The notes under the pieces were generated by a model. It was given only the letters and a program-made list of their open reading frames with translations, ran no database searches and was not told where the DNA came from. Shown here in pieces: positions 25,586-63,701 of a stretch of DNA of 64,000 nucleotides (the first letter of the stretch is position 1; every line of letters begins with the position of its first letter). Source of the DNA: Coemansia sp. RSA 487. Taxonomy: Eukaryota; Kickxellomycota; Kickxellomycetes; Kickxellales; Kickxellaceae. The translations under genes were made by a program, and so were the position numbers. The stretch is taken from assembly GCA_027577595.1 (NCBI GenBank), contig JANBRJ010000064.1, forward strand, positions 1-64,000. The letters run 5' to 3'.

Positions 25586-26746
25586 TCAACAGATATGCGA
25601 AGAGATCTCTTGTGACAGCAACCGGATGACATCCGATGCTGCTTGGTCCGATAAAGGTTCTCCAACAGCAGCAGCACCATCCCGATCGCCTATCCACTCG
25701 CATTCCGCGTGCTGCGATCCAGCATCGATACTTGAGACACGCAGCCCAAGCATAATAGAATTGTGATCTGACAAGAGAACAAACACAGATCCAACGTCGA
25801 TTCCGTCGACAGGAGGCACTGAAAAGGCGTTTCGCAAGTACGCAAGGTCGATAGTAATACTTGGCCCTGGACTATCCATCAACCGTGGTACTTTAATGCT
25901 ATGGTCTTCTAGCTTTCTGGCTACGTCCTTTGCCGCGCAAAAGTAGCGCTGGTTGGTGCCGCCGATAAGGTGCATTAGGTGGACTCCGAACCGATGGTTG
26001 ACAGACAAGGGGGTTCCTGTGCCTGGGCTGATAAAAGTGACTGTTATTTGCCCATCCAACTGCTTCAATGCATCGACTGATATACAAACAGCGGATTCTG
26101 CAGTGGCACCGGTGCCAATATTCGTTGGTTTTGACTCTTGCTGCACAGCAGAAGAGCCACCTTCGTCTTGGGCACCGGCGTCCACAGGCAGAAGAGTGGT
26201 TGTCTCGAGTGGCTCAAACTCTATAACCGGGTTTATCTTGACATTTGCACTTGTCTCCTGCTCACTAGAAGCAGGCATGCAAACAGGGGAGCTTGCGATC
26301 CTTACACTCTGCTTGCTCTGTGCCGCGTCACTGTTGCTATTGCGTTGAGCAAAGTGCAACGATGCCTTCAGATTGACCAAAGGGATGGGCGAGTTGTTGG
26401 TAACGGATATGCGTAGCACTGACGAGTACAGGCTGCCAACGCTCTCTTCGGCCTCTGGAGCCTGTGGTGCGCTGGCTTTGGCAAAGACGCCAATACTAAT
26501 AGCCCGTCTGACCATCTCCTCCATCATCGTGTTCATCGACAGCGTCATTTGGGCTACCTGCTGCATGTTGCCCAAAAGAATCTGTTGCATGTTCTGCAGC
26601 GATGCTCCAATGGCGACGGTCGAATCCGAGAGCGCATTTACATACGTGTTGTTGCCGGTGTCAGTCTCAGTGTTAGTCTCAGTGGTCTGCTCGTTTTGTT
26701 GGCTATCTGACGTCTTGTCAGTGTCAGCTGTCTGTAAGTTCTCCAT
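25586..26746 (-). CDS. Unknown protein with helical N-part and beta-rich domain
   Basis: The preferred ATG at 26746 gives 386 aa. An ATG at 26890 would add 48 residues with a hydrophobic stretch, but it lies only 60 bases from the divergent ARL2 start in leader-like AT-rich DNA. The protein begins with a Gln/Thr/Asp-rich tail. A Met/Gln-rich amphipathic helix follows (NMQQILLGNMQQVAQMTLSM), then a domain with strand-like segments (YSSVLRISVTNNSPIPLVNL; GQITVTFISPGTGTPLSVNH) resembling an Ig-like or adaptin-ear fold. I recognise no named family. It converges on the carrier. Confidence 0.7.
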   Translation of the reverse strand: MENLQTADTDKTSDSQQNEQTTETNTETDTGNNTYVNALSDSTVAIGASLQNMQQILLGNMQQVAQMTLSMNTMMEEMVRRAISIGVFAKASAPQAPEAEESVGSLYSSVLRISVTNNSPIPLVNLKASLHFAQRNSNSDAAQSKQSVRIASSPVCMPASSEQETSANVKINPVIEFEPLETTTLLPVDAGAQDEGGSSAVQQESKPTNIGTGATAESAVCISVDALKQLDGQITVTFISPGTGTPLSVNHRFGVHLMHLIGGTNQRYFCAAKDVARKLEDHSIKVPRLMDSPGPSITIDLAYLRNAFSVPPVDGIDVGSVFVLLSDHNSIMLGLRVSSIDAGSQHAECEWIGDRDGAAAVGEPLSDQAASDVIRLLSQEISSHIC

Positions 26747-26950
26747 TCCTTGGCTTTGTAAGAGGGAGATATTCAGGTTTCGAGTGTAAAAGGCGAATCC
26801 GAAAAGCATAAAAAAAGAAAAGAAAAATACATGAACTTGGAACGAAAAAGCTTTGCTTTGTTTTTCTCGCTTAAAACAGCCGATTATCATCTTTCCCCTT
26901 TTCAGTATTTCTGTTTACTCTAATTCAGCTCCTTTCACTGTACGGACGAA

Positions 26951-31116: not shown

Positions 31117-33229
31117 ATGTCACTTAGCTCAATTGAAGTTCCAAATGCTCCTTCAGTTCCCGGCGAAACAAAGGTAAGGCATTTTTCGTCTACTGGGCGT
31201 TTGCTGAAGTGTCTTTCCGCATTCCAACACGCATACAAAATAGATTGCTGAGCTTTTATTACAACGGTTTTCATTGATATAGCCACGTATCGCTGCTACG
31301 TGCCCAGATGGCGTAATGACACGGAACTTGGAGGGCGTCAACAATATGCACGACAACTTTATGAACGGAATGAAACATGCTGGCGAAGATGCGCCATGTT
31401 TTGGATACAGACCGATTGGCACCGATGGAGGTGTAGAGGGATACAGATGGTTTTCGTTCAAACAGGTCAAAGAGACGGCATCTGCCATTGGATCGGGCCT
31501 ATCCAAACTGGGCATCAACACAAAGGACTGTATAGGAATATTCTCGCCCAACCGTATCGAGTGGTCGTACATAGAGCATGCTTCCTATATTTACAACTTT
31601 ATCTCCGTGCCCATGTACGATACACTGGGCATCGATGCCGTCAAATTCATGGCCGAGGAGACAGAGATGACTGCTGTTGCTATTGCGCCCGAAAAGCTCT
31701 CTACATTTGCTAGCTTGTGGAAATATTTGCCGCATGTCAAGGTAGCGGTTCTGTTTGGTTCTAGTCAAGAAACCGGCAGCGTGGAAGTTCCAGAAGGCGC
31801 GCAGCTTATTTCGCTGGATGAGTTGGTTGTGCTTGGAAGCAACGGTGGTTTGGCACCGCTCCCCAAGACCCCGGCCAGCCCAGACGATCCTTGCACAATA
31901 TGTTACACCTCGGGGACAACTGGTACGCCAAAGGGCGCCATACTCACGCACATGTGTCTTATATCTAACGTTAATAGCGCAGGCCAGAGGATAGCACACG
32001 GATATATCCCATCCATCGACAAAACAGATACATATATTTCGATCCTCCCGCTTGCACATTGTCTCGAACGCTGCATCCATGCAATTATAACCGGGCGTGG
32101 TGGAGCTATTGGCTTTAACCAGGGTGATATTCGCAAAGTAATTGACGACATTTTCGAGCTAAAGCCAACGATCATTGTCGGCGTTCCTCGGATATTCAAC
32201 CGCATCAATGACCAAGTCTGGGCTCAAGTCAACACAAAAGGTGGGCTTGTCGGTGCGTTGTTCAGATACGCCTACGATGTAAAGAAAGCAAACCTCGCCT
32301 ACAACAGCAGCCAGCACTGGCTGTGGGACAGAGTTGTTTTCAAAGCGGTTCGACAAAAGCTTGGAGGAAGATTGCGCTTGGTAATATCAGGTTCTGCGCC
32401 TATATCGGGCGAGGTGTTGGATTTCTTGCGCATCACACTCTCTGCCACTGTTCTCGAGGGCTATGGCCTGACCGAAACTACTGGCCCTTGCGGTGTCTCG
32501 CTAAGCACGGATATGAAGGCTGGAAACGTTGGCTGTTCCCTCGGAAACTGCATTTACAAGCTCGTCAGCGTCCCCGAAATGGGATACACCGTCGACGACA
32601 AGCCATACCCTCGTGGAGAATTATACGTCAAGGGAAACAATGTCTTCGCAGGGTATCATAAAAACCCCAAGCTCACTGCAGAGGCGAAAACACCTGACGG
32701 CTGGCTTATAACCGGCGACATTGGCATGTTTGATGCCCAAGGCAGTCTTGTTATTATCGACCGGAAAAAGAACATGTTCAAGCTAGCACAAGGCGAGTAT
32801 GTGACTCCAGAGCGCATCGAGATCATCTACACCAGTAGCGCACTCATTGACCAGGCGTACATACATGGTGACTCGCTGGAAAGCCAGCTCGTGGCTGTCA
32901 TTGTCCCTAACGAGGAATTTTTGCGCAGTCATCTTGCTGAGACCTCCGAGCTTGCTCACTGGGCAGCAAAGGAAAGCTTTGCTGACATTTGCCAAAGCGT
33001 AGATGTTACCAACAACATCCTCGAGTTTATCGATAGCTGGGGTCGCACTAACGGTTTAAAGGGATTTGAAATTCCAAAGAACATCCACCTGGAAAGCGCT
33101 CCTTTCACTATTGAAAATAGCATACTGACGCCAACACTCAAAGTCAAGCGTCCTGCTGCTAAAACTATGTACAGCGATACACTTGGCCGTTTATACAATG
33201 AGCTAAAATCGAAGGGATTAGCCAAGTAA
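31117..33229 (+). CDS. Long-chain acyl-CoA synthetase, copy 1
   Basis: The gene has two exons, 31117-31173 and 31283-33229, with a 109-bp phase-0 intron (GTAAGG...GATATAG). The product is 667 aa and starts MSLSSIEVPNAPSVPGETK|PRI; the joined PGETKP is also found uninterrupted in copy 2, which supports the splice. It is an ANL-superfamily enzyme that makes acyl-CoA from fatty acid, ATP and CoA. The P-loop is canonical, YTSGTTGTPKG (about 227-237). Other motifs: EGYGLTET, the linker IDRKKNMFKL with the YVTPERIE segment, and the C-terminal LTPTLKVKR carrying the catalytic Lys. No targeting signal is clear (C-terminus LAK). Of the three copies, it has the most regular motifs. Confidence 0.93.
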
Positions 33230-34469: not shown

Positions 34470-35114
34470 TCATTTTTCAAGTGATTTAATGTAAGGGGCA
34501 AAGGTTGGGTCTTTGGATAGAATTTCGACAGCGTTATTTATCTCTGGTGCATTATCATTACTAAATGGCTCAAGCAACTCAGGCATGGAATTGATAAACG
34601 TTTTACGCAACGTCAGCAGGCTAGCGAGAGCGGAAACATCTATGTATGTGGTTTTGTCGCCAAAATAATGACCATTCGAGCCATTTTCTCTGAGAACTTT
34701 CTCATGGTTTCTAACTACGGAGCGTGTAAGGATGTTGTACTTATTAATGAAGAACTGTCGGGCAGGCTCGGGAGCATGGATAATTAGCGCAGACATTTCG
34801 TATATATCGTTCATGTGTGCGCGGACCTCGTGTTGTCGAGCCATCAGCTGGATGTCATTGGGCTTGTAGAACAGATCGTACTTGGTAGCCAAATACTTTT
34901 CGATGGCACGCGAATCGCCCAGAATAAAAGGCGCTGTGGAGTTTGATTCAACTTTCACAACAAGAACTGGGAGGTTGCCGACAGGCTGGGAATCTTTTTC
35001 TTTAGGCCACTCGGGGAACTCCAGCGTCCAGTTTGCTCCAACAAAGGTAAGAAGGGCTTTGCATATTTCTGCGCGTGCAGGAACAGGAAAATAACGCAAA
35101 ATATAAGACGCCAT
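34470..35114 (-). CDS. Glutathione S-transferase, copy 1 (sigma-like)
   Basis: This 214-aa cytosolic GST probably conjugates glutathione to electrophiles. The thioredoxin-like N-domain opens MASYILRYFPVPARAEICK with the Tyr and Arg typical of the sigma/alpha-like G-site. It continues to VGNLPVLVV (cis-Pro) and LGDSRAIEKYLA (the D/ES-R-AI motif). The helical C-domain includes HEKVLRENGSNGHYFGDKTTYIDV, the N-capping/hydrophobic staple region. It is paralogous to the GST at 63060 with near-identical blocks (HEKVL.ENGSNGHYFG). It is separate from, but lies between, the acyl-CoA synthetases. Confidence 0.92.
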   Translation of the reverse strand: MASYILRYFPVPARAEICKALLTFVGANWTLEFPEWPKEKDSQPVGNLPVLVVKVESNSTAPFILGDSRAIEKYLATKYDLFYKPNDIQLMARQHEVRAHMNDIYEMSALIIHAPEPARQFFINKYNILTRSVVRNHEKVLRENGSNGHYFGDKTTYIDVSALASLLTLRKTFINSMPELLEPFSNDNAPEINNAVEILSKDPTFAPYIKSLEK

Positions 35115-35423: not shown

Positions 35424-37466
35424 TTAATTCAACTCCTTGTAGAGGTCGTCAAGCATGCTTGCAAAATAAGCTTTGGCTTCGCGGCGCTTCAGCTTGAGGG
35501 TTGGTGTAAGAAGGCCAGTCTTATCGAACGGAACAGGCAGCAAGTAAATGTTCTTTGGGACCTCGTAACCGCAAAGATCGTGTGTTTTGCACCACATCGA
35601 AAGCTCGCTGAGGATCTCCTGTCGCGCTCTAACATCGTTGCACAGGTCGCTGAACGCGTCATCTGCGCCGCTGACATAATGGGGCGGCAATGCTCCCTTT
35701 GATCTCAGAAACATTGGCAGCAACGTTTCGTCGGGAACCACAATGGCCACTAGAGCGCTCTTTAGCGGGTCACCGTAGACAAACGCTTGGCTAACGGCAA
35801 AGTGGTCCATGAGCGTGTTTTCGATTTTTTCAGGGGCAATGAATTCACCTTGCGCCAGCTTGAACAGATTGTTCTTGCGGTCGATGATGTGGAGGCGGTT
35901 GCGGGAGTCGAGGAAGCCGATGTCGCTGGTGCACAGCCACCCGTCGTCGGTATACACCTGGCGCGTGAGCTCAGGCTGCCCGTAGTATTCTCTGGCCGTG
36001 TGTCCACCTTTGATCATAATCTCGCCCCGAGGGTATGGCATATCGTCGACGGTGTATCCGAGATCGGGAACGCTTCTGAGCTTCATCATTGCGCATGGAA
36101 TTGGGGCGCCTACGTTGCCAGACTCGGTGTCGTCCATTTGTGTGACAGTCGTTGGGCCAATTGTTTCCGATAGGCCGTAGCCTTCGAGGACTTTGCACGA
36201 GAAGCAGCACCGCAGGAACTCGAGGGTCTCCGGGGAAATAGGCGCCGATCCAGAGATAATGAGCTTTAACTTGCCGCCGAACTTGTCGCGAAGCGGCTTA
36301 AAGATAATGCGGTCCCATAGCCAGTGCCTTGCCTGGCCACGGCTGGAAAGGTTGCTTCTTTTCGTCGAGTACGCGTACTGGAAGAGCGCCGACGGAAGCC
36401 CGCCCTTTACCTTGACGGCCGACAGGATCTTGTCCTGGATGCGGTTGAAAATGCGTGGCACGCCAACAAACATTGTGGGCTGCAGCTCCTTGAGATCCTC
36501 GACGAGCTTGGCGGGATCGCTTCGCGGAAATGCGGTTTTGGTGCCAAACGCGAGCGAGACGTGCAAAGTCATGCGGCCGAGGCAGTGAGCCAGTGGAAGA
36601 AATCCCATCGAGCAGTCGTCTGGCGAGAACGGGTACATGTCGCCATGCTCCACCTGCGCAGCCGTCGACGAGATCGTGGCAAGAATGTTTGCGTGCGTAA
36701 GGACCACGCCCTTGTATGTGCCCGATGTTCCCGACGTGTACACTATGGTAGCGACGTCGTCAGGAGCAGGAAGTGTCTCTGGCTCGACGGGTTGGCGCGC
36801 GCCCGAGTCTTCGACTACCCGCAGCGGCGTTATAGCAAGTCCGTGCGTGATGCCTGCCTGCAAAAGGCCGCTTGGCGGCATGCTGGCTTCGTCAACCATG
36901 ATCATTGTTTGCAGGCACGGGATGGTCTCGATCATACCAAGGACAATCCGTGCGTACTTGCTGGTGCAGACAATGACCTTCATGTCGACCTCATTTATTA
37001 TATGCCTGAGCGCCGCCGCGCCAAAAGACACGTACATGGGGACCGAGACAAGGCGGTGGTAGTATGATGCAAACTCGGTTAGTACCCATTCGACCGAGTT
37101 GTCCATCAGGATGCCGATCCTGTCGCCTGGGTGCATCCCGAGGAGCCGCAGCCCCGAGGCCAGGTTGACGAACCGCTCGTGAAACAGATCCCATGTGATC
37201 CACCGGTACGCACCGACGTTACCCATGCCGTCGACGGTCGGCCGGTACCCAAAGACTGGTGCATTCCGGCCTGCGCGTGCGCGTCCACGCAAGTAATTGT
37301 CGTACAGCGAGTGCACGCCCTGTGTGTGCTGGATCAGCTTACCGGTCGTGTTGATATAGTTTACATATGGTTTGGTTTCTCCTGGGACTGCGGCGGATCC
37401 CGGAACCTCGATGGCACAAAGCGGTGGAGTTTTATTGGAGCTCTTGCTTGGAAGAATCATCAACAT
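35424..37466 (-). CDS. Long-chain acyl-CoA synthetase, copy 2
   Basis: The ATG at 37466 gives 680 aa (a second in-frame ATG lies two codons later). It aligns with copy 1 from AVPGETKP onward, but without the intron found there. It has all ANL segments: EGYGLSETIGP, DMPYPRGE, the linker IDRKNNLFKLAQGE and C-terminal LLTPTLKLKRRE with the catalytic Lys. The ATP-binding P-loop reads YTSGTSGTYKGVVLTH, so the usual Pro before the Lys-Gly is Tyr. The Lys and the Thr-Ser-Gly-Thr are kept, and activity is likely. No PTS1 is present (C-terminus ELN). An N-terminal hydrophobic open stretch upstream of the ATG is probably leader. Confidence 0.92.
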   Translation of the reverse strand: MLMILPSKSSNKTPPLCAIEVPGSAAVPGETKPYVNYINTTGKLIQHTQGVHSLYDNYLRGRARAGRNAPVFGYRPTVDGMGNVGAYRWITWDLFHERFVNLASGLRLLGMHPGDRIGILMDNSVEWVLTEFASYYHRLVSVPMYVSFGAAALRHIINEVDMKVIVCTSKYARIVLGMIETIPCLQTMIMVDEASMPPSGLLQAGITHGLAITPLRVVEDSGARQPVEPETLPAPDDVATIVYTSGTSGTYKGVVLTHANILATISSTAAQVEHGDMYPFSPDDCSMGFLPLAHCLGRMTLHVSLAFGTKTAFPRSDPAKLVEDLKELQPTMFVGVPRIFNRIQDKILSAVKVKGGLPSALFQYAYSTKRSNLSSRGQARHWLWDRIIFKPLRDKFGGKLKLIISGSAPISPETLEFLRCCFSCKVLEGYGLSETIGPTTVTQMDDTESGNVGAPIPCAMMKLRSVPDLGYTVDDMPYPRGEIMIKGGHTAREYYGQPELTRQVYTDDGWLCTSDIGFLDSRNRLHIIDRKNNLFKLAQGEFIAPEKIENTLMDHFAVSQAFVYGDPLKSALVAIVVPDETLLPMFLRSKGALPPHYVSGADDAFSDLCNDVRARQEILSELSMWCKTHDLCGYEVPKNIYLLPVPFDKTGLLTPTLKLKRREAKAYFASMLDDLYKELN

Positions 37467-37993
37467 AAAAGTAGAGTTAAAAGAGAGCACATGAAAGACT
37501 TTGTTGGAATAAATATTTGTGAAAAAAAATGAAAGAAGAGAGGAAAACGGACGCATCAAAGATTGCCAGCAGCGTCCACACCCATCTAGAGAAATCAAAG
37601 AGCGTGAACGCGCTTATGAGAAACAAATATTCTGATCAACCAGAGCGAAAAAAAAAAAAAAAGTTCCATGGAAGTGGCTCTTCGTCGATCGTCATGTGTC
37701 TCTTGTTAGCCATTTTGCGCACAAACCACACATCATCATCTTTCAGATGACTATGCTTGTTCATTTGCTTTTCTCAGCTTCTTTTCAAAAAGTGCATGGC
37801 AGTGCATATATCAAATCATAATGGATGAGCACTCGATGATCTGATCCGTAAATAATAAATCAGTGACTGGGAGCTGCAGAATCATGGATCTTCAAAACAT
37901 CACGCTTGAATGCGGATCACCCCAACATTTGCTTTTTTGTCCTTTACCTTTTTTTATGTTTAGAATTTCGTTAAAATCTGTTTAGCTATAAGA
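37467..37993. other. Divergent promoter region and spacer
   Basis: This 527-base gap separates the start codons of acyl-CoA synthetase copy 2 (minus) and the UMP-CMP kinase (plus). It includes a run of about 14 A at 37650. No gene is seen. Confidence 0.5.
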
Positions 37994-39074: not shown

Positions 39075-41375
39075 TTACATTTTCTTTGACGATGCCTTGC
39101 TCATCTTCCAGTTGCTGATGCCGGCCATCTGGCTCTGGTCGATGCCGGCGCTCTCGATCTCCTCATACAGGCGGTTGATGGTGACCTGGTAGTGGCGGAT
39201 GGCTTCGTAGCGCTTGATCTTCAGCGTCGGCGTCAGCAGGCCATAGACATCCAGGCCATACGGCTCGAGATAGATGTTGCTGAGCAGCTCGTAGTAGCTG
39301 AGGTCGCGCTCAACGCTGTGGTTGTTGAGCTCGTTGAGCACAGCGCTGCGCACCATCGTGTCGATGCACAGCATCTGGTGGTGCGGTGGCTCCGCCCCCT
39401 CCTTGATGATCTTCTTCTTCGACAGGAAGACGCGCAGAAACTCGGGGTCCAGCACAACGATGCCCACGAGGGCGCCACGCTCGCGGTCTCCATACACGAA
39501 CGCCTGGGTCACCAGGTCGCAGTCGCAGTACACGTACTCAATGCGCTCGGGCTCGATCAGGTGCCCTGTGTTGAGCTTGAAGATGTTGCATTTGCGGTCG
39601 ATGATCTTGAGCCGGCCCTGGTCGTCGAACATGCCCAGATCGCCCGTGCGGAACCACCCGTCGTGGGACAGCACCTCGGCCGTCAGCTCAGGCTGGCGGA
39701 AGTACCCGCGGAACACGTTGGCGCCGCGCACCATGACCTCTCCCCGGGGGTACGGCTTGTCGTCGACGGTGTAGCCGAGCTCCTTGACGCTGGCCAGCTT
39801 GATCATGTTTGTCGGGAACGGCGTGCCGACAGAGCCGGGCGCTGCGTCGTCATGCGTGGTGATGCTTGCCGGCCCGCACGTCTCGGTCATTCCGTAGCCC
39901 TCGTTGACCTCGCACGAGAACGTGCACTTGAGGAACGCCATCGCCTCGTGCGAAATCGACGACGTTCCCGAGATTATCAGGCGGATGCGGCCGCCCAGCG
40001 TCTCGCTCAGAGGCTTGAAGATCACGTGGTCCCACAGCCAATGGCCAGCCTGCCCGTGCTTGATGTTGCGCAGCTTGGCCTTGACAGCGTGGCGGAAGAT
40101 GGATCCGGCCAGCCCGTTCTTGCCCTTGATGACGGCCATCGCCTTGTCTTGCACGCGGTTGATGAACTTTGGCACGCCGATGATGACGGTGGGCTTGACT
40201 GCGCCCAAGTCCTCCAGCATGTGGTCCGGCTGCGTGCGCGGAAACGCCGTGCGGCACCCCACAGCCACCATCACGTGCATCGCCAGCCGCCCCAGGATGT
40301 GCGACAGTGGCAGGATCGATGCGCTGCAGTCCCTGGCCGTCACGTGCGGAAGGTCCCTGTTCTCCATCACAAAGTTTGTGCCAGCAATCGACGACACCAG
40401 GTTTCCGTGCGTCAGGATTGCGCCCTTGGGCACGTCAATTGTCCCCGACGTAAACACAATCGTCGCCACGTCGTCGTACTTTGGCAGCTTGAACCTCTCC
40501 TCGGTGCTCTCGCGCCCGTACGCCTCGACATCGGCCATGTTGAACACCGAGAACCCTTTTTCTATCAGCCGGTCCACCAGCGCCTGCGGCGGCGGCTGCT
40601 GCATCAGCACAATGTTTTTGACCTTTGTGATGTGGTCACGCATGTCCAGCAGCTTTTTTGCGCATATCGTTGTTGCAAACACCGTAGTCATCTCCGTCAG
40701 GTTGATTATGTACTCGATGTGCGCTCGGCTCTGCGTCTCGTGGATGGCTATCGACACGAACCCTTGGTAGTATGTGGCGAACTCGACCATGGGCCACTCC
40801 AGACAGTTCCCGCCAAACAGCCCGACGTTGTCGCCGGGCCGCAGCCCGAGCCCCTGGAACCCCTTCGACAGGTTGCGGAACCGGTCGTGGAACGATCCGT
40901 ACGATATCCACTTTATGGCGCCTGGCTGCCCGCTCCTTTGATCCCTGTCTCTGTGTCCAAAAACAGGCACCGACGCTACAAGTGATGCAGACAAGCGATT
41001 TGCACAAAGCATCGCGGTTTCCTTTAGCAAATGCTCGCTTTATGCATAGCGCCTTGGTGGTCTAATAATGGCCAACCTGGCAAACAAAGAGATACTTACG
41101 GCCACCTGCGGTCTTCATCCCATGCAGAAAGCTTTCGTATACGGTTGATATGTTGTCGGCGCTGAATAAAAGCTTGTTGTTTGCTGCATTGCGGTTCAGC
41201 ACAGGCTACAAACCAGATAAAAAACAAACAAACACAATTAAGTCTGTGTGCATATTGACAAGGCCATTCATTGTCTCAACCACCACAGTCTTGGATGAGA
41301 TGCACTTACTATTGTTTCGTTTTCAATGTCGGGTGCATTGAGCACTGGTATCGAGTATGTGTTTCTTCTGTACAT
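39075..41375 (-). CDS. Long-chain acyl-CoA synthetase, copy 3 (three exons, altered P-loop)
   Basis: Reconstructed minus-strand exons are 41310-41375, 41100-41205 and 39075-40975, with introns of 104 bp (GTAAGT...TTGTAG, phase 0) and 124 bp (GTAAGT...TTGTAG, phase 1). The product is 690 aa. Exon 1 gives MYRRNTYSIPVLNAPDIENE, parallel to copy 1's start, and intron 1 sits where copy 1 has its intron. Exon 2 gives the family's TVYESFLHGMKTAGG; intron 2 joins to PSVPVFGHR. The ANL motifs EGYGMTETCGP, DDKPYPRGE and LLTPTLKIKR (catalytic Lys) are kept. The P-loop is TSGTIDVPKG instead of TSGTTGTPKG, which may weaken ATP binding. The C-terminus is KKM. The upstream exons are inferred. Confidence 0.88.
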
Positions 41376-42753: not shown

Positions 42754-43026
42754 CTCTTTGCTCTTTACTCCTTACTCTTTACGAAAAAAAACTTTTGAAC
42801 TAGCTAACAAAAATAAAGGAGACGGCCAATATTTGAATTTAAAAATCGCAAGAAATCAACGTACAGACTGCGTAGAAAAACTGATTCTTTAATTAACCTT
42901 TATGCATTGTGCCACTGTTTTCTTGTGTCTCTTATTTTAGCAAAACCATGCACAGCAAAATAAAACAATCCAACATTTTGAATAATGAAAGCTTGGCTTA
43001 ATAAGTGAAAAGGCAGCTAACTATAC

Positions 43027-43527
43027 TTACTTCTTGTCAATTAGCACAATTGAAATTGCATCCTTGCTGTCCATCTTGTGTTTTATATATGTGTCTCTGG
43101 GCTTGATCAGCGTCGATCCATAGGTCGCTTTGATGGTCTTTCCAGAGGAAACGTTCACTTGCATTATATCCAACATATATTTGACATCCCTCATTATGTT
43201 GTCGTTGATAAATGTGTGAAGGTTTTCAACTTTGCCATTACATTTAAATTTGACATCAACAATATTGCACCATAGAACTAGCGTTTTTCCATTTCCAAAC
43301 TCATTAAGTCGCTTGTTAGGCAACGCCTTCACGGGTTTCCTGTAGCTGGATTCCGTATATATTTTAATCTTTCCAGCGTTTAAACACGTCTCAGCCTCTA
43401 CCAATCTTGTTAAATAACTAATGTTCCTTTCAGTACTAGGATTAGGAATTATAATATCCAATGCCGGCTTTCTGTTGGTCTTTAAAAGAACGCTTTCAAA
43501 CACATTGTGTTTCCTCGTAATAGACAT
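43027..43527 (-). CDS. Tandem ubiquitin-like-domain protein, family copy A
   Basis: This 166-aa protein is of a family I do not recognise; four relatives lie in this window. I read it as two beta-grasp domains. Domain 1 (about 8-88) runs from VLLKTNRKPALDIIIPNPS to KTLVLWCNI. Domain 2 (about 90-163) ends KATYGSTLIKPRDTYIKHK then MDSKDAISIVL, parallel to the ubiquitin stretch [20 protein letters not shown]. The C-terminus is IDKK, not Gly-Gly, so it is probably not conjugated. No signal peptide or membrane segment is present. Codons are AT-rich compared with housekeeping neighbours. Function is unknown. An alternative for domain 1 is a Crinkler-like header, also ubiquitin-like. Confidence 0.72.
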   Translation of the reverse strand: MSITRKHNVFESVLLKTNRKPALDIIIPNPSTERNISYLTRLVEAETCLNAGKIKIYTESSYRKPVKALPNKRLNEFGNGKTLVLWCNIVDVKFKCNGKVENLHTFINDNIMRDVKYMLDIMQVNVSSGKTIKATYGSTLIKPRDTYIKHKMDSKDAISIVLIDKK

Positions 43528-43979
43528 TCGTACTAGCGTTTAAATGTTCCTAAAATTGCAAATATATAGCAGAACTAAATAACTAGGAAGGAATGAATGG
43601 TTGAAACATGAAAAGTGGGGCGAATAGGAAATTCAAGGCATTTTATAGTGTCATTATCATCTTACATTTGCCTTTATTTATGTTATGTGTATTATGTATT
43701 ACCTGGCTTGCTTTCCTTGGGTTGTCACCGACATCTAACATATTAAAGTCATCAATGCACAAAGAAGTACAAATAGCAACCAAGAAGTCATTGCTGATGA
43801 AAATTTACAGATCCCGCCCAACTTCTTGTCCGCAGAAAGGACAAACAGCACATATTGTATATAGAAGCCTCGGATAATTTGCTAACAATTATTTAATTAA
43901 AAGATACTTTGTATATAAGAAATAGTTTACTTTTTTTTTAAAAAACTACGCTTTACTGATGCATTATGCTATAAGCAGT
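43528..43979. other. Spacer inside the small-family cluster
   Basis: These 452 AT-rich bases contain a plus-strand open frame (43608-43877, 89 codons) with one hydrophobic stretch and a Lys-rich end. I cannot relate it to any family, and it may be chance. Confidence 0.4.
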
Positions 43980-44478
43980 TTATTCCTTGTTGACAAGCTC
44001 AATAGTAATAGCTGCATTGCTGTCTATCGTATGTTTCACGCAATTGTAACAACATTTGATTTGCTTTAATCCATACATAACTTTAATGGCTTTTCCGAAT
44101 GCAGCTTTTGCATTCGTTAAAACAAGCGAAAGCTCAGCACCCTTAATCATGCTATCCCTAAGCAGAGTATACACTTTTTTGTGCTTGTCTTTGTATTTAT
44201 GCTTGACACAAACTATATTGCATTGCAGTATCAAGGTATTTCCATTGCTACAATTGTTAAGACGCAAGACTGGTAGCTCTTTTACACGTTCCTCGAATTC
44301 TGTCTCTGTATAAAGCTTAATTTTGAAAGTGCTTATCCCTCTAATATCCTTTATTAGAACTTTTAAATCGGCAAGTATTTTCAACGCTTGGTTCTGGAAT
44401 TCTATTATTTAACACTAGCTTTCTCTGTGTCTCAAGGGCAACCATTTGAAGTACTGTGTGGTTCTCACTAGAACTCAT
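43980..44478 (-). pseudogene. Tandem ubiquitin-like family, copy B (one frameshift)
   Basis: The start codon at 44478 opens MSSSENHTVLQMVALETQRK, homologous to copies A and C, and the frame stops soon after the IPEPSVEN segment. The remainder of the family sequence continues in a second frame to 43980: ILADLKVLIKDI, IKLYTETEFE, GNTLILQCNIV, and a C-terminal KHTIDSNAAITIELVNKE. A single one-base slip near 44,395 accounts for this. Otherwise the copy is full length (about 165 residues), so it is either a recent pseudogene or a sequencing error. Confidence 0.7.
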
Positions 44479-44595
44479 TGGGTTTAATGCCAAAATAATA
44501 TTCCAAACAGCAAGTATATTGTGGCACGAGATTCAATTACCGGATGTATTTTTACCATTATTTAACAGTATACTACGCCAACATATGTGGGCCTG

Positions 44596-44620
44596 TCTTT
44601 TCCTTTTCCTTTTCCTTTTT
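44596..44620. repeat. TTTTCC hexamer repeat
   Basis: A short run of CCTTTT units in AT-rich DNA between copies B and C, the 3'-flanking side of copy C. It is simple sequence with no evident function. Confidence 0.6.
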
Positions 44621-44771
44621 TAGTTTTACGTAAGATGTTTTATTCATGTTAAACAGATAGTAAATTTAATAACCATTAATATACTATAACAGCTAGTGCA
44701 AAATAAATGCCAAATTCCACTATATGAATCATTGTTAAACTTCATAAATGTACAGAGTTATATAGTCGGCT

Positions 44772-45278
44772 TTATTTTTTGGGAACTATCTTGACAATGA
44801 TAGTTGAGCCACTATCAATCTTATATTTACTATATGTGCCACCGGGACCAATATCTTTTGTTCCACATATTACTTTGAGCTCCTTGCCTTCTGATATATT
44901 CTTTTTTGATATACCCAAAGTATCCTTGATATCATCATATACTTTTTCGGTAATCAAGCTGTATATTTTGTGAGTCTGCATGTGAAAAGTTAATGTTACC
45001 TTTATTATGTTGCACCAAATAGTCAATGATGTATTTCCAGTAACCCCATTTAAACGCTTGCTTAGCTGAATTGGTGTTTGTTTGGATTTAATGTAAGGCG
45101 AAACATAAAACAGCTTTATATCTCTTTCATCCACAGGCGTTTTGTCAGAAATAATATTGGTAATCTGATCAAAGTTCATAGCTGCATTGGGATTTGGTAT
45201 TGCAAATTTAAGTGCTACTTTGTTATGTGTTTTTAGCACAATTGACTTTATAACTACATATTCTCTACGTGCCGACAT
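44772..45278 (-). CDS. Tandem ubiquitin-like-domain protein, family copy C
   Basis: This 168-aa protein shows the ubiquitin likeness most clearly. The C-terminal stretch KVICGTKDIGPGGTYSKYKI then DSGSTIIVKIVPKK lines up without gaps with the last strands of ubiquitin ([20 protein letters not shown] then QKESTLHLVL). Domain 1 (about 8-88) starts VVIKSIVLKTHNKVALKFAI and ends SLTIWCNII, the conserved joint of the family. Domain 2 is about 90-165. The C-terminus is PKK without Gly-Gly. It is intact from ATG to stop, without introns, and its codons are AT-rich. It is the most upstream of three copies on the minus strand. Confidence 0.75.
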   Translation of the reverse strand: MSARREYVVIKSIVLKTHNKVALKFAIPNPNAAMNFDQITNIISDKTPVDERDIKLFYVSPYIKSKQTPIQLSKRLNGVTGNTSLTIWCNIIKVTLTFHMQTHKIYSLITEKVYDDIKDTLGISKKNISEGKELKVICGTKDIGPGGTYSKYKIDSGSTIIVKIVPKK

Positions 45279-46563
45279 TGGTTCAAATAGTTTAATAATA
45301 AATCTCTGAAGGAAATAAAACTAAAAGTAGAAAAGAAAGCTTCAAACATTGTGGAATATATTTATGTTCTTATAGCCATGATTTTTCCATCCTTTTGCTT
45401 TGGCTAATGGCTAATAATATGGTTACGTAGTGCTTTAATGTTGCAGTCCACAAATTTGTCTGGCCTAGGCTGATTAAAATAGAAAAAGTCCCTCCCCAAA
45501 AAGATATTTTCATTTAACAAAAGCTTTGTAGCAAGCTAGAAAGCACAAAAAGGGGAAACCTAACTAACAGACCTTGAGATGCATTCCTTTCACATCTACT
45601 GGGTTGCCATACCGTGCAACATGCGTCAAACCAATGTCAATTGTTAAAAACATGTGTATTTGTGAATAAGTGTAAAATACACTTTTTTGTCTAGATACTA
45701 GATTTGAGCAAAGGTCAAGTGAAAAGACATGTCCTAAAGAGAGCTCAATTAATTTATCATTTGTTTGTGAAATTATGATTGAGTTGATAAATACAATTAG
45801 CAACCTGGCCTAAAAGCACACAAACATATAATCATGAATATGCTATTTTTATTGGCGCATTTACTTGATACCTGCAGTTTTCTACTATGTATATTTCAAT
45901 GGCTCTTCTGTTGTTGGAACCATCAATGATGACCTTGATCCTATATATGTACTTGCCGCAAACAAGACAGCACCATAACAAACGAACTATACAATTTAGA
46001 ATGAAGCAATCAAAAAGACAGACAATCCATTTGAAGGCCATTTCTTTAAGTAGTGACATTGCCATGTGAGTATAGCTTTTGGGCGTTGAATCCTTCCATT
46101 GCCTACCAGATTTCCTTTACATGCTCAACAAGAAAAGGTTGTCGCAATGTCTGGTTCTTTCAACACAATACCAAGCCATTCAACTGGAAGCATGTTGTGG
46201 TCTCTATCCGTATCTCAGTTTGCGCTTATTTTCCTTCCTCTCTTTTTACTCAATAGAAAGGGCTTTTGTCATGCAGAAAAGGATATTGCTGATCAAGATG
46301 TTGGGTTTTCTTTTTATTTTGGATTAGTGTGTTTCTCTATCCAAATGTTGACTTTTTTCTTGTTCGCTGGATAAAACAGCTCTTTTATTTATTCAGCTCT
46401 TGAAGAAGCAAGAGAAATCGGATCCACCTCTTTCTTTTTTTCTTTTCGCCCTAGTTATTATTGTATTACAGTTTTTTTGCTTTCTTTTCTTTAATTATAA
46501 TTTAAAGTTTGCAAGCAGAGTTTTTATATTTTTAAAGCAGGCTACTCAAGTGTAACATTAACA
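45279..46563. other. AT-rich spacer, possible decayed sequence
   Basis: These 1,285 AT-rich bases have short overlapping open frames on both strands at 45832-46374, including Cys-rich stretches on the minus strand. I looked for transposase or polymerase motifs and found none convincing. A long T/A-rich tract (46430-46560) precedes the next gene. Confidence 0.4.
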
Positions 46564-47556
46564 ATGCATCTAAAGCTGTCCAACAGGATGGGGTTTCTAT
46601 CTCTAGTGGCAGTGTCTGCACGCCTGGGTAGCGCAACCATTCAACCTATGGCAAAGATTGGAGACAACCAACTTTATGCATCCAACTCGCCAGATGATAC
46701 TTACTGGGGCTTGACTACAGCTGGTCTGTCAGTCAGCGGCCATGATTCCGCCTTTCCTCTTGACCGTACTTCTACAGTTACTGTTGTTAGGGATATATCA
46801 GTGTGGACAGAGGTTGGTGGGAAGGATCCCAAGCCTTGGCTTGAAACACTGACACCAGATCCTGATATGGCAGACACTGTCGAGAAACCAACACCTACTC
46901 CAGCAGATCCTGCAACTGTTACTACGACATTTCAGTCACTATCTGCAGCCACCGTTACAGCCGAACCCCCGGTACAGCAGCCCCAGGTCACACAAGGACA
47001 GGGACCACAGCAACAACAAACTGCTACAGTCACCACGACACAAGTTTCAACAGTATCAGTAGTGACAACGGTTGTATCAACAATTATGCAAGATGTAACC
47101 CAGACTGTGACCCAAGCAGTAACTGGAATGCTGCAGCAACAGCCGAACATCCAGATGATCATGAACCAGCCCACACAGGCTGCAGTGACCGTGACTGTGA
47201 CACAGACAGAACAAGCAGCTGCTATGCCCCAATACATGCCTCAATACATGCCACAGTATATGCAGCCATATATACAACCAGTACCGCAGCCATATGTGTT
47301 TGTTATTGGCCAAAACGGAGGTGAAGGCCAAGGGTACCAGCAAGATAATGGCGGCTATGGCCAGCAAACGGCTACTCAGCCACCTGAGACAATGCAAGAG
47401 CGACAGCCCACATCGTCGGCTCCTCCAACAATGGATCAGTTGGAACCTACTGCCACGGATATGTCTACTGAGGATCTTGGTACACTTACCGTCTGGGTCA
47501 GCGTTACACACACTGTTGATGTTGATGGCACTACTGTAATGACTGCCGGCTATTAG
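46564..47556 (+). CDS. Secreted Thr/Gln-rich low-complexity protein
   Basis: This 330-aa protein has an N-terminal hydrophobic segment (MGFLSLVAVSARLGSATIQ, with Met-9 as a possible alternative start) that looks like a signal peptide. The rest is low-complexity: Thr/Val-rich tracts (TVSVVTTVVSTIMQDVTQTV), Gln runs and a Met-Pro-Gln-Tyr repeat (MPQYMPQYMPQYMQPYIQ). It ends DVDGTTVMTAGY. There is no catalytic domain and no GPI or membrane anchor. It is likely a cell-wall or secreted O-glycosylated protein. I do not recognise a family. Confidence 0.75.
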   Translation: MHLKLSNRMGFLSLVAVSARLGSATIQPMAKIGDNQLYASNSPDDTYWGLTTAGLSVSGHDSAFPLDRTSTVTVVRDISVWTEVGGKDPKPWLETLTPDPDMADTVEKPTPTPADPATVTTTFQSLSAATVTAEPPVQQPQVTQGQGPQQQQTATVTTTQVSTVSVVTTVVSTIMQDVTQTVTQAVTGMLQQQPNIQMIMNQPTQAAVTVTVTQTEQAAAMPQYMPQYMPQYMQPYIQPVPQPYVFVIGQNGGEGQGYQQDNGGYGQQTATQPPETMQERQPTSSAPPTMDQLEPTATDMSTEDLGTLTVWVSVTHTVDVDGTTVMTAGY

Positions 47557-56823: not shown

Positions 56824-57321
56824 ATGAGCAACCAACTGAACACCGAGGACAACGGAGGTTTGCGGTGGGTCGATGCAAGCAACGGCCAGATCCCACAGGG
56901 CGCACTTGCCCAAGGCGTCGACAATACAGGCCAGCTCCTGTTCATTGCCCGCGGCGCATACAAGGGCGGAATACACCCAGGAAAAGCAGCACCGCATGTA
57001 CCGGACGGCGGGTTCCAGCTGAGCTGGGGCGGGCGGGCGCACTCGCTCAACAAATACCAAGTATTGTGCGGCGACATTGAGCGCACTCGCTGGGTGCCTG
57101 TGCGAGGGTCCGTGCAAAGCCTGCTAGATAGGAAAATTCATCTGGTGCATGGCGGGAATGAGGCTGACGGCTCGACGCCGCTGTTTGTCGCCAAGACGCA
57201 AGTGGGCGGTGCGGTGACTCTGGGCAAAAGCGGCTCACATATTTGTGCTGGCATGAGCTATCCAGACGCTACTGGTGCTGAGCAGAACGAATCGAAATAC
57301 TTGGTGCTGGCATACGCGTAG
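56824..57321 (+). CDS. DM9/DUF3421 domain protein
   Basis: This 165-aa protein consists of two DM9 repeats. Repeat 1 has LRWVDASNGQIPQGALAQGV, then LLFIARGAYKGGIHPGKAAP and YQVLCG. Repeat 2 starts RWVPV, has PLFVAKTQVGG and ends KYLVLAYA. This matches DUF3421/DM9 proteins, some of which are mannose-binding lectins in molluscs and insects. No signal peptide is present. In a fungus the role is unknown; sugar binding is an inference from the family. Confidence 0.9.
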   Translation: MSNQLNTEDNGGLRWVDASNGQIPQGALAQGVDNTGQLLFIARGAYKGGIHPGKAAPHVPDGGFQLSWGGRAHSLNKYQVLCGDIERTRWVPVRGSVQSLLDRKIHLVHGGNEADGSTPLFVAKTQVGGAVTLGKSGSHICAGMSYPDATGAEQNESKYLVLAYA

Positions 57322-59783: not shown

Positions 59784-60329
59784 CTACACGAGGAAAGCAA
59801 AAACAAGGAATGCTACGCCTATACCTCCCGTGAAAGCATTAAATATTGTGACAACGAGAAACGCAGTATGACCGGAAATATTCGGCGTCTTCCGCGTACC
59901 CTGGATCTCGATGTCATTGCCGTACTGGTTTTTGTACAGAGCTTCCAACACAGAGTCCGAAAACAAGAAGCACATCATGACAATGTACAGGATACCAATG
60001 CAAAAGAACGTAACAGGATTGCTGTCAGGAAACTTGAAGTGCCATACCCACCGATTTCCAGGCTGAAAGCACCACGCAACACAAAGAGCCCAGAACAGGC
60101 AGCACACATGCTTGGCTATCTGTGCGTTATATGAAAACTCTCCAAGCCACGTACACACATATACGCCAATTATACATGTTGACGCTAGCGTCATGAGAAA
60201 CACAAGCCAAGCAGCTACAACGAACGCTGTTTTTCGTGGTGGTGCTACCGGGTCTGTGCTCGCTGGCGCTGGATCTCCAGCCTCCTCAACCACTGGTGCC
60301 TCATTTCCTTCCACATCTTCGCTTGGCAT
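59784..60329 (-). CDS. Four-TM membrane protein, unknown
   Basis: This 181-aa protein has an acidic Pro/Ala-rich N-tail (about 30 residues) followed by four membrane segments: VVAAWLVFLMTLASTCIIG, HVCCLFWALCVAWCF, PVTFFCIGILYIVMMCFLF and GHTAFLVVTIFNAFTGGIG. The layout suggests a MARVEL-like or tetraspan protein, but I see no diagnostic motif. It converges on LCMT1, with 88 bases between stop codons. Confidence 0.8.
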   Translation of the reverse strand: MPSEDVEGNEAPVVEEAGDPAPASTDPVAPPRKTAFVVAAWLVFLMTLASTCIIGVYVCTWLGEFSYNAQIAKHVCCLFWALCVAWCFQPGNRWVWHFKFPDSNPVTFFCIGILYIVMMCFLFSDSVLEALYKNQYGNDIEIQGTRKTPNISGHTAFLVVTIFNAFTGGIGVAFLVFAFLV

Positions 60330-61589
60330 TTTATTATTATTCTACCTTGTTGGCTTTAAATATTCGGGGCGGTTATTCGCTTTTTATGTAGCCGTGCTCC
60401 TTTATCCGCTTTTTATTTTGACTGTATCTTGTTGTACTAGTAAAGAATTTGTACAGTAATAAATAGCCTAGCTACTAACTGAATATCTTCTATAGAAGTA
60501 TAAACTATAAATATGCAAATAGCTAGACTGTAAAAGTAAAGACAAAAGATGAAAGAAAACACATGTTTGCTCTAACCACAACTGTCCTATTCCTCCATTC
60601 TGTTCTTAATAAAGTTGTACATTTAGAATATGTGTGTCTCTTTGAACTCCGCCTTTATACAAAATGTACAGGCTTATAAAGAAAATGTCCATTTGACACA
60701 ACAAATAGCCAAAAGAAAAAAGATTTATAGAAATAAAAAGAACACTTTATTCAAATGAGCGCACGCAATCCATAAAGAATCGCTGTTTTTTGCACATGTG
60801 GATATTTACACTCTATTGCTTAATCGAGTAAAAAAAAGAACAGATAGCACAGCATTTAATATGGCTTTTTGCCAGCTTGTTTTTATGAAAACCCTGCTAT
60901 TTAGTGCTTGGTTTAAACATTTTGCATTTTAGTGTTCTCTTTCACTGTGAAAAACAGCAAAAAGTTGGAAATATCAGCGCCTTCTCCCCTCAAGCAATTG
61001 TACATTTTGGCGTATTTTTTATTTCACAGTTAATATGTAGTAATTGCTAAACATGTTTGTTGGAACCTATGCACATGCTTACCTGCCTTCAACTTCTAAT
61101 CTACCAACGGTAATAACTATACCTCTTGAAAACGTGTAAAAAGGGAAAAACGCACCCTCAAACTTTGTACACGTATGTGTTTGTAAGGAGCCTTTCTATT
61201 TCATATTGCTTTTGCTCGATTTAGCCTTTGATCCACATGTCAGCGGATTCCTCCAGCTTGTTTTCCATTTTAATCGCCCTTATACTCTATATGTAAAGGA
61301 GGTGTTGCTAATGACAAAATCCCCTTTGAAAATATATACGTGCCCCATCTCTATCTGCGAACATGCGTGTTTTCAAAGTAAGCATGTATAAATTGGTTTG
61401 ACCTCAATACAGTGCTGACCATTTACAAATAATAGGATGGTTGAGATTTGTGACTATAAAGACACACGAGTTTTTCATTAAGAAACTAATATTTTACTAC
61501 AATTATTCTTCCTATTCTGCTCTTGAATAAATAAAAAACCCATCAAACACTTGCACAAATGATTACTACCGATAGCCAACTTATGGTCA
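60330..61589. other. AT-rich intergenic spacer
   Basis: About 1.26 kb of very AT-rich DNA without a supportable gene or RNA. Open frames are short and of AT-rich composition. Confidence 0.5.
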
Positions 61590-62030
61590 ATACTATTAAC
61601 TTGATAGCCTGTAAGAAAGTCGTGCTTTCAATAAAGTATCAATGACATTAAAGTACACATTAGCCAGTAAACAGGGAAGATGAAAGACATAGAACTGTAT
61701 TGTCTTCCTCGTAAGGTAGCTTCCAAAAAGATGAAAATAGATCCAACGAAAAAACTTTACGCAATTGTAAACAAAGGGGCTTTGGCATTCTTTTAATATT
61801 ACCAAAGCAAATCTTAGCTATGAAAAGAATATTGTGTCTGCTTATGTATTTATTGATGGCAAAATCTATGGAAATGTCAACGATGCATTTTCATTTTCCC
61901 CATATACAATTTCTAAATCTAGAAAGCCCTGTATAAGCTACGGCAAAATTTCTATTAGTCCCAAGCATACATATTTGCAATTTAATATTGACAGTGATTC
62001 CACTATTGTTGTCAAGATTCTTCCCGGCAT
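61590..62030 (+). pseudogene. Tandem ubiquitin-like family, copy E (degenerate)
   Basis: Pieces of the family appear in order in more than one frame: KKVVLSIKY, then MKDIELYCLPRK with LYAIVNKGALAFF, then NITKANLSYEKNIVSAYVFI, and finally GKISISPKHTYLQFNI with DSDSTIVVKIL. At least two frameshifts, one in a T-run near 61,793, separate them, and no clean start codon is seen. The last block is very close to copy C. It is a decayed copy on the same strand as, and 470 bases upstream of, intact copy D. Confidence 0.65.
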
Positions 62031-62500
62031 TCAGGATTGTAATTATTCAGGTATATTATTGCATTCAATTTCGCATATTTTCAAACGAGTACCATGCATT
62101 TTTTTCGCAGATGGGCACTACTTTAAGACCCGATACTAGAAATAAAATAATAATGGTTACTTCTTTCTTTGATGGGGACACAAAGCAGACATTTTCTTTA
62201 TAGTTCTCTTTGAAAAAAGCAAACAAATTTAAACAAATAAGGATTTTTTTACAGTCAAACCTACCCAGTCAATTGCGTCAGAAATTCTTTCAAACAATAC
62301 AAATAAAAATAACCAACTGTTTTTTTACGTTTTCATCAAGCATTCCATAGACAACCTATCCTGCTCGCGCAGGGAAAAGCTATAAAACCTTGAAGTGTTT
62401 CCATTCAAAATTGCATCTAACAATGCATTGACAATATTGTTTTACCTAAGGATATTTGCATATTTAATTGTTTAATTATTAGCAATACCACAAGCTAAAA
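62031..62500. other. Spacer upstream of copy D
   Basis: These 470 AT-rich bases contain the presumed promoter of copy D. No other gene is seen. Confidence 0.5.
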
Positions 62501-62989
62501 ATGAGCAAGGTCGTTGTCAGGACGGTTAGTGTTAAAACCAAGAACAAAGTCATCTTCAGCTTTGACCTAACTAACCCTAGTAACGATACAAAAATTGATG
62601 ACGTGAAGAAACTGATGCTTAGCAAGACAAGCTTGGATAAGGAGGACATTGATCTTTACCATGTTTCCTTTTACAGCAAACGAACAAAGCCATTACCAAA
62701 TATGCGGCTTAACGAGCTTGCAAAAGCCAAGCATTTGACCCTATGGTGCAACATTATAAAAGTAAAGTATCGATTTGGTTCCGCATCTAGTACATTATAT
62801 TCTTTCATCGATGACAAGGTAATGGATGATGTTGAGGAATTCCTATTCATAAAGCATATCAAGGTTCCATCTGGTAAGAAAACCAAGGCTGCCTGCAACA
62901 GTAAAGTGTTTAAACCATCCGATACATTTTTATCCTGTGGATTGGACAGTGAAATTACCATTAATGCTGAACTTGAAGACACAAAGTAA
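62501..62989 (+). CDS. Tandem ubiquitin-like-domain protein, family copy D
   Basis: This intact 162-aa protein has the same two-domain layout as copies A and C. Domain 1 (about 3-82) has RTVSVKTKNKVIFSFDLTNP, KIDDVKKLMLSKTSLD, DIDLYHVSF and the joint HLTLWCNII. Domain 2 (about 85-158) has KVKYRFG, VMDDVEEFL, then PSGKKTKAACNSKVFKPSDT and GLDSEITINAEL. The C-terminus is EDTK; there is no Gly-Gly. No signal peptide is present. It ends 70 bases from the convergent GST copy 2. Function is unknown. Confidence 0.75.
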   Translation: MSKVVVRTVSVKTKNKVIFSFDLTNPSNDTKIDDVKKLMLSKTSLDKEDIDLYHVSFYSKRTKPLPNMRLNELAKAKHLTLWCNIIKVKYRFGSASSTLYSFIDDKVMDDVEEFLFIKHIKVPSGKKTKAACNSKVFKPSDTFLSCGLDSEITINAELEDTK

Positions 62990-63059
62990 TATTTATCGTG
63001 TAGTAGCGTTTTCAGTATAATAAAAAGCTGTGTCTGGAAAACTAAACAATAAAACCACT

Positions 63060-63701
63060 TTACTCGGCAGAATACGATGCAAGAGAGGGGTTGGCCAGCA
63101 TTTTCTTGTACACCTTGTTTATTCCCGGTGTGTTTTCCTCGCTAAAGAGCTCGAGCAATTCGGGAGCCACGCTGTAAAAGGTAGAACGCATCGAGTAGAC
63201 GCCTGCAAAGGCGGCAATATCAACATACGTGGTTTCTGAGCCAAAATAGTGGCCATTGGATCCATTCTCTTTCAGCACCTTTTCGTGCATTCTGGTTACG
63301 TACCCGGCGACTGATTTAAGCTTATTCTGAAGCGCATCCTTGGCTTCTTCGTTTGCAGCAAACTTTATTTGTCCGCAAAGGTCGTTTATGTCTTTAATGT
63401 GTGAACGTAGCTCATTCTGGCGAGCCACAGCCTTTAAATCGTCTGGCTTGAAGTAAAACCCATGCTTTGCCGCTAGGTACTGCTCAATAGCCAAAGATTC
63501 GCCTAGAACAAACGGCTCATCGCTCGAAGCGCTGCTTGAGCTTTCAATAAGCACTGGGACCTTGCCGACTGGCTGTGCGTCCTTTTCTTGGGGCCAGGCT
63601 GGTGACTCCAGCTTCCAGTCAGCACCGCTTAAAGTAAGGAGCACTTTGGTTGTCTCGGCACGGGCGGCAATGGGGAAGTAGCGTAGAGTGTACGAAGACA
63701 T
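63060..63701 (-). CDS. Glutathione S-transferase, copy 2 (sigma-like)
   Basis: This 213-aa GST is paralogous to that at 34470. It opens MSSYTLRYFPIAARAETTK and has VGKVPVLIE (cis-Pro), LGESLAIEQYLA (the ES motif) and HEKVLKENGSNGHYFGSETT. Compared with copy 1 it carries a Ser-rich insertion (SSSSASSDEP) after the cis-Pro strand. It is complete and intronless, and converges on copy D of the small family. Confidence 0.92.
   Translation of the reverse strand: MSSYTLRYFPIAARAETTKVLLTLSGADWKLESPAWPQEKDAQPVGKVPVLIESSSSASSDEPFVLGESLAIEQYLAAKHGFYFKPDDLKAVARQNELRSHIKDINDLCGQIKFAANEEAKDALQNKLKSVAGYVTRMHEKVLKENGSNGHYFGSETTYVDIAAFAGVYSMRSTFYSVAPELLELFSEENTPGINKVYKKMLANPSLASYSAE

Follow-up and report, generated by a model that had tools for sequence, protein, structure and literature searches.

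In the first 64,000 nucleotides of contig JANBRJ010000064.1 of the fungus Coemansia sp. RSA 487 (assembly GCA_027577595.1; this whole stretch is hereafter called the window), a small gene family is present whose products appear to consist of two ubiquitin-like domains in tandem, and which lacks the Gly-Gly motif of ubiquitin both at the protein end and at the joint between the domains. The family, named here by its copies A to E, is real and includes two broken copies: it occupies five loci, three of which hold full-length genes. A ubiquitin-like (beta-grasp) fold is well supported for the second domain and supported more weakly for the first. With moderate confidence, we consider copies A, C and D to be working genes and B and E to be decaying ones, and the products to be soluble proteins of about 165 amino acids, made of two directly joined ubiquitin-like domains, that are not conjugated and bind other molecules non-covalently.

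Five loci and three full-length genes

Three of the copies lie on the minus strand between positions 43027 and 45278, and two on the plus strand at 61.6-63.0 kilobases (kb). A preliminary description of this DNA, made from the sequence alone, had taken the first three to be of full-length type, which holds for copy A (43027-43527; 166 amino acids, ending in DKK) and copy C (44772-45278; 168 amino acids, ending in PKK), both of which are intact open reading frames (ORFs). Copy B is frameshifted. Its main ORF (43980-44384; 134 amino acids, ending in NKE) covers the later part of domain 1 plus domain 2 and is 40% identical to A over 114 amino acids, and its N-terminal piece, which begins with MS, was located in a different frame (44386-44478, within a segment at 44365-44478) by three-frame translation and tblastn. 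In the second cluster, copy D (62501-62989; tblastn with A, E 7e-30) is an intact ORF of 162 amino acids ending in DTK, while copy E is a remnant without a start that reads beyond the position at which the family stops. The domain 2 remnant of E (61795-62025), which has no stop codon where the family ends, is 35% identical to C over 77 amino acids (tblastn, E 8e-10), and a possible domain 1 remnant in another frame (61683-61793; tblastn with C, E 1.4) is not above background alone and was placed by its position. The length of about 165 amino acids that had been given for each copy is thus right for three of the five.

Copies A, C and D align with one another from end to end at 34-38% identity (tblastn within the window, E 7e-26 to 6e-30), A being 38% identical to D and 34% to C. 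In a six-frame search of the window with a profile built from A, B, C and D, these four copies (by construction) and the second half of E (E 6e-11) stood above background, and the N-terminal piece of B was recovered at E 0.011. No sixth copy was found in this search, in which the next segment reached E 1.4 and reversed proteins E 2.1; the first-half piece of E (E 4.7) was not above the level of the reversed proteins. The start MS is common to A, B, C and D and their stop position agrees too (KK, KE, KK and TK, respectively), and the limits assigned to the genes are therefore likely right.

In each of the six pairs that A, B, C and D form, codon position 3 diverges more than either of the other two positions (in the pair A-D, the differences are 0.45, 0.36 and 0.65 at positions 1, 2 and 3), a pattern which, together with the survival of three reading frames at about 35% identity, fits selection on the protein. 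The guanine-cytosine (GC) content of the copies is 0.33-0.38, whereas eight other ORFs of the window have 0.48-0.59. Both clusters (43000-46000 and 60000-63000) are situated in low-GC stretches (0.33-0.38 per kb, the whole window having 0.477), and comparably low values occur in a few other kilobases of the window, e.g., 0.348 at 1-1000. As to the history of the copies, a tree of the second halves, which has five rows only and two long branches, places C and E together (97/93) and apart from A, B and D. Along the direction of transcription the clusters read C-B-A and E-D, an order that would fit the duplication of a pair formed by a C-type and an A-type copy; compared over the whole length, however, D is equally near to C (37%) and to A (38%). 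A search for repeats around each cluster gave none beyond a 37-nucleotide direct repeat at 70% and inverted arms of 28 nucleotides.

Evidence for two ubiquitin-like domains

The beta-grasp fold of the second domain is indicated by three results that concur: a structural model of copy C, the matches of a second-half profile as compared with its reversed control, and the pattern of core residues. Structure prediction followed by fold comparison, proposed in the preliminary description as a check, succeeded for C, in which the element order of ubiquitin is found twice. The best AlphaFold2 model of this copy, computed from seven rows, has a predicted local distance difference test score (pLDDT) of 73.1 and a predicted template modelling score of 0.56. 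Domain 1 of this model (amino acids 11-89; 45012-45248, minus strand) contains strands at residues 12-17 and 20-26, a helix at 36-46 and a last strand at 84-88, and domain 2 (about amino acids 92-168; 44775-45005, minus strand) has all elements of ubiquitin, with strands at 91-98 and 101-108, a helix at 113-120 and strands at 132-138, 141-143 and 159-166. According to the alignment and the strands of the model, the joint LTIWCNI (45006-45026, minus strand) leads from the last strand of domain 1 into the first strand of domain 2.

Comparison of the C model with the PDB by Foldseek gave 1670 matches, 109 of them at E ≤0.001. The best one is linear diubiquitin (3b08; E 9.6e-8 over 165 columns), and matches to the full length of the model include, besides linear diubiquitin, both ISG15 and FAT10 (7pyv; E 1.2e-6, rank 12), the two proteins that the layout had first brought to mind. 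Classed by title and not by chain, the best 50 of the 1670 matches comprise linear ubiquitin chains and their complexes (two being a diubiquitin-derived binder), ISG15 (seven), FAT10 (one), OASL (two) and talin heads (11), two titles being ambiguous as to the chain that was matched (6kbe, "Deubiquitinase", and 3rt3, an influenza protein with a "host anti-viral factor"). The first domains of talin heads are themselves ubiquitin-like. A search of a viral structure library gave 355 matches, 15 at E 0.001, and the best 50 of these 355 are mostly giant-virus ubiquitin-like proteins and fragments of pestivirus polyproteins, which reflects a shared fold and is no evidence of descent.

The sequence profiles of the two halves behaved differently when each was compared with the PDB, a check similar to one that had been suggested. 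The second-half profile, built from all five copies, gave eight matches at E up to 10, seven of which are ubiquitin or ubiquitin-like (four FAT10 entries, a ubiquitin-like-domain protein, a putative ubiquitin and a redesigned ubiquitin), the eighth being a lactate dehydrogenase. With E-values of 0.32-1.7 none of them is individually significant, the register fits in the three alignments printed, and the weight of this evidence lies in the agreement in kind of the matches and not in single E-values. The reversed second-half profile, used as control, had one match, a DUF2280 protein, which is not ubiquitin-like. FAT10 also accounts for three of the four matches of a full-length profile of four rows, the top match of which is the ribosomal protein bL28m. 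For the core test, residues A, V, I, L, M, F, W, Y and C were counted as hydrophobic, and the positions scored in both domains are those that we take to form the ubiquitin core. Overlaid on domain 2 without gaps, ubiquitin places seven core positions on hydrophobic residues in 35 of 35 cells, compared with 20 of 35 at most when the overlay is slid by 1-4 columns.

For the first domain, the fold is suggested by Foldseek alignments that span both halves and by the same core test: three gapless segments fit ubiquitin with 19/20, 19/19 and 12/12 hydrophobic core cells (50/51 in total), the maxima after sliding by 1-5 columns being 14/20, 12/20 and 7/11. Aligned with ubiquitin and NEDD8 by hhalign, both halves fall in the expected register, and column shuffles score as well in 8 (first half), 3 (second half) and 5 (whole) of 200 cases.

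The resemblance to ubiquitin is visible in the profiles and in the core pattern, and not in each copy singly. The ungapped alignment of the last strands of ubiquitin with copy C given in the preliminary description is out of register as printed, with identities at one of 20 positions; moved by one residue, it has seven of 20 identical; the best ungapped score of C, obtained in this moved register, is matched by 3 of 300 shuffles. The second half of E is weak in the same comparison (24 of 300 shuffles as good), and the ungapped scores of A, B and D, reached by 229, 167 and 187 of 300 shuffles, do not exceed the shuffles. The gapped score of A was equalled by only 8 of 300 shuffles, but in a register incompatible with the fold.

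The reading of the family as working genes for proteins of two ubiquitin-like domains has several points against it. The other four models of C have pLDDT values of 58.5-44.6, so that a single usable model, together with the sequence tests, carries the fold. In that model, domain 1 has its middle strands as two-residue bridges only (57-58 and 68-69), and the Foldseek TM-scores (template modelling scores), taken by query length, are low at 0.32-0.38, for which a different angle between the domains is the probable reason. The fold comparison failed for D, whose model (four rows) is of low confidence (pLDDT 45.1) and had 51 matches in the fold search, none at E 0.001. PDB searches with single copies gave no ubiquitin-like match (three matches for C, seven for D, two for A), neither of the two matches of the first-half profile is ubiquitin-like, and hhalign gave very low probabilities of 0.5 and 1.4% (E 0.11 and 0.037) for the first and second half. 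The segment offsets of domain 1 were picked by eye. Moreover, the two halves are unlike each other: 71 of 200 shuffles equalled their comparison, which gives no hint of duplication within the protein. No copy has a better family E-value than C with Lipocalin_7, a match that is below the cut-off and not to a ubiquitin family. Finally, the breakage of two copies out of five may mean that the family is drifting.

Protein ends, joint and proposed mode of action

The protein ends had been read correctly as KK (A and C), KE (B) and TK (D), and Gly-Gly is indeed absent from all four readable ends. In ubiquitin numbering, the proteins stop at position 75 with K or E. The joint reads LVLWCNI in A (43261-43281, minus strand), where it lies between both ubiquitin-like domains, LTLWCNI in D (62735-62755, plus strand; both identified by sequence reading and alignment), LTIWCNI in C and LILQCNI in B, again with no Gly-Gly. 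The family therefore has neither the C-terminal Gly-Gly that marks a conjugated modifier (A, B, C and D) nor the Gly-Gly at the unit joint that marks a linear polyubiquitin precursor, and because of this the proteins are not expected to be conjugated, or cut into units, along known routes.

Positions 44, 68 and 70 of ubiquitin are used by many of its readers. In copies A, C, D, B and E, position 44 is T, I, A, M and S, and position 70 is V, K, E, E and K, respectively; the copies also differ from each other at position 68. Such variation of the Ile44 patch from copy to copy makes a general mimicry of ubiquitin unlikely. Residues D62-S63 (ubiquitin numbering) are kept in all five copies, and C-N-I of the joint as well as R-L-N ahead of it in A, B, C and D. 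In a hand-made register, the last strand of domain 1 and the opening strand of domain 2 would be linked by two residues, in place of the RLRGG of linear diubiquitin, which suggests that the domain pair is stiff.

In the mode of action that we propose, A, C and D would be functional genes, intron-free in their coding part, and B and E copies in decay. The product would be a soluble protein of about 165 amino acids with nothing but two ubiquitin-like domains, for which attachment to targets in the manner of ubiquitin would be impossible without Gly-Gly. It would most likely dock non-covalently to one specific partner at or near the joint and thereby act as an adaptor or a competitor, in the manner proposed for the tandem domains of mammalian OASL or Rad60. 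Solubility, the stiffness of the joint, non-covalent binding and the use of the joint as interface are what we infer in this scheme.

Comparison with known tandem ubiquitin-like proteins

FAT10 (ubiquitin D) is a stand-alone protein with two ubiquitin-like domains. It is the most frequent profile match of the family (three of four with the full-length and four of eight with the second-half profile), no single sequence match being significant, and it differs in being covalently conjugated, as described in PMC10442930, whereas A, B, C and D are without Gly-Gly. ISG15 is also a small protein with two ubiquitin-like domains and supplies seven of the best 50 Foldseek matches; in the account of PMC9722776 it ends in LRLRGG and has been reported only from vertebrates. 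Since Gly-Gly is missing, the Coemansia family is not a member of the ISG15/FAT10 class, and by analogy it may be like the binding-only parts of the biology of these modifiers.

The tandem domains of OASL in mammals are described as lacking LRLRGG, so that they do not function via conjugation, and are regarded as mimics of poly-ubiquitin on RIG-I, while chicken OASL retains LRLRGG (PMC8764230). The tandem of chicken OASL is among the best 50 Foldseek matches of the C model. A difference is that an OAS domain precedes the tandem of OASL. The RENi family (Rad60, Esc2 and NIP45), which occurs in fungi, is described as having two successive ubiquitin-fold domains with a proposed non-covalent action (PMC549199, PMC2946365). 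As defined, RENi does not include the present family: RENi proteins possess a polar low-complexity N-terminal region ahead of two SUMO-like domains, whereas A, C and D begin at the first domain: the first strand of C runs from residue 12, and A, C and D align from their start. No Rad60/SUMO-like match was found among the copies, their halves and trimmed pieces in Pfam, a library that presumably contains such a model.

Alternative explanations and family searches

An alternative that we regard as unlikely is that domain 1 is a divergent header of the Crinkler (CRN) type and the family a header-only side branch. CRN N-termini are predicted to be ubiquitin-like and to resemble the N-terminal region of fungal SSK1/Mcs4 (PMC5289972), and the CRN proteins of Rhizophagus are described with a motif LxLWKV and a further conserved stretch LKxxI (PMC6131194). 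A ubiquitin-like header is known in fungi and oomycetes, and the LxL(F/W) motif may have a counterpart in the strand-3 region of domain 1, which reads IKLFYV in C, IKIYTE in A, IDLYHV in D and IKLYTE in B; LKVLI is found in helix 1 of B. The resemblance between these motifs is loose, however. The five copies, eight halves and four trimmed pieces had no Crinkler match in Pfam, where we assume a Crinkler model to be present and where the HMMER filters drop weak matches. Furthermore, HVLxxP and a C-terminal effector region belong to CRN proteins, whereas by eye HVLxxP is absent from the sequences of A, B, C and D, and no effector domain follows domain 2 in A, C and D, whose ORFs end there.

Somewhat less probable still is that the copies are ubiquitin-like and drifting, without a present function. 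The two broken copies of five, the strong divergence (34-38% identity) and the position of the copies in low-GC stretches (0.33-0.35 in their kilobases, with 0.477 for the window) would agree with drift. Against it, A, C and D keep frame, start, end and core at this level of identity, and the excess of third-position differences in six of six pairs fits long-lasting selection.

Membership of the second half in the lipocalin or fatty-acid-binding family is very improbable. Lipocalin_7 was matched by the whole of C (E 0.0014), by its second half (E 0.00035) and by a longer piece (E 0.00089), and C also had gastrotropin matches in the PDB (E 0.74 and 0.78). This assignment was rejected, since the score is below the curated cut-off (20.9 vs 25.4 bits), comes from C alone among the five copies and covers 53 of 128 profile positions, and since the C model is a beta-grasp. 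Just as remote is the idea that the protein is, in spite of its ends, a modifier attached along some unusual route or through another residue, for which the ubiquitin-type second domain ending at position 75 could be adduced, but which is opposed by the ends KK, KE and TK and the lack of Gly-Gly at four readable ends and at the joint.

Searches of Pfam (copies, halves and trimmed pieces) and NCBIfam (A, C and D) gave nothing at curated cut-offs, the sole NCBIfam match having E 0.062, and nothing convincing was found in PHROGs with A, C and D (best E 0.11). Among the Pfam matches below cut-off, USP7_ICP0_bdg (C, E 0.14) and HAUS2 (D, E 0.066) for the first half, and HAD_SAK_1 (B, E 0.032) and TcaA_3rd_4th (copy E, E 0.2) for the second half, were set aside as weak and inconsistent. 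A scan of viral contigs produced 69 pattern matches and one of bacterial and archaeal genome contigs 32, none of which was confirmed; as neither collection is fungal, this says little about relatives. No fungal stand-alone family of two ubiquitin-like domains was met among the titles and abstract openings listed in literature searches, which does not imply absence from print. The proteins may already be in fungal collections as hypothetical proteins, and the term "undescribed" of the preliminary description is thus unproven.

Neighbouring genes

The gene content of the window, which includes Pga1, Zwilch and GH81, points to a fungus. Three genes for AMP-binding enzymes are close together (31316-33229, 35424-37598 and 39075-41030, with PF00501 in each). 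Two ORFs are GST-like (GST_C_3), one at 34470-35114 (21.4 bits, cut-off 21.6) and the other at 63060-63701, convergent to copy D. A short DM9-repeat protein is encoded at 56824-57321 (PF11901, E 3e-21). ORFs of 330, 501 and 434 amino acids (46564-47556, 21306-22811 and 25586-26890) have no Pfam match at E 0.001, and the first of these has none at E 1 either.

Meaning for tandem ubiquitin-like proteins

Tandem ubiquitin-like proteins are mostly known as vertebrate immune modifiers that need Gly-Gly, or as parts of larger proteins. The turnover of copies in the present family would hint at a role under conflict. A broader possibility, which we put forward tentatively and hold to be rather doubtful, is that of a fungus-specific, stand-alone and conjugation-free di-ubiquitin-like family, turned over by duplication and decay, that would act as non-covalent adaptor or decoy in a conflict (with a virus, a mobile element or a host), the joint taking the place of the Ile44 patch. 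The family might then be, in form, the fungal counterpart of the vertebrate immune tandem modifiers, a suggestion to which the same reserve applies. If the two-domain reading proposed here is true, a stand-alone pair without Gly-Gly in a fungus would demonstrate that non-covalent binding by itself can suffice for a two-domain layout to be retained.

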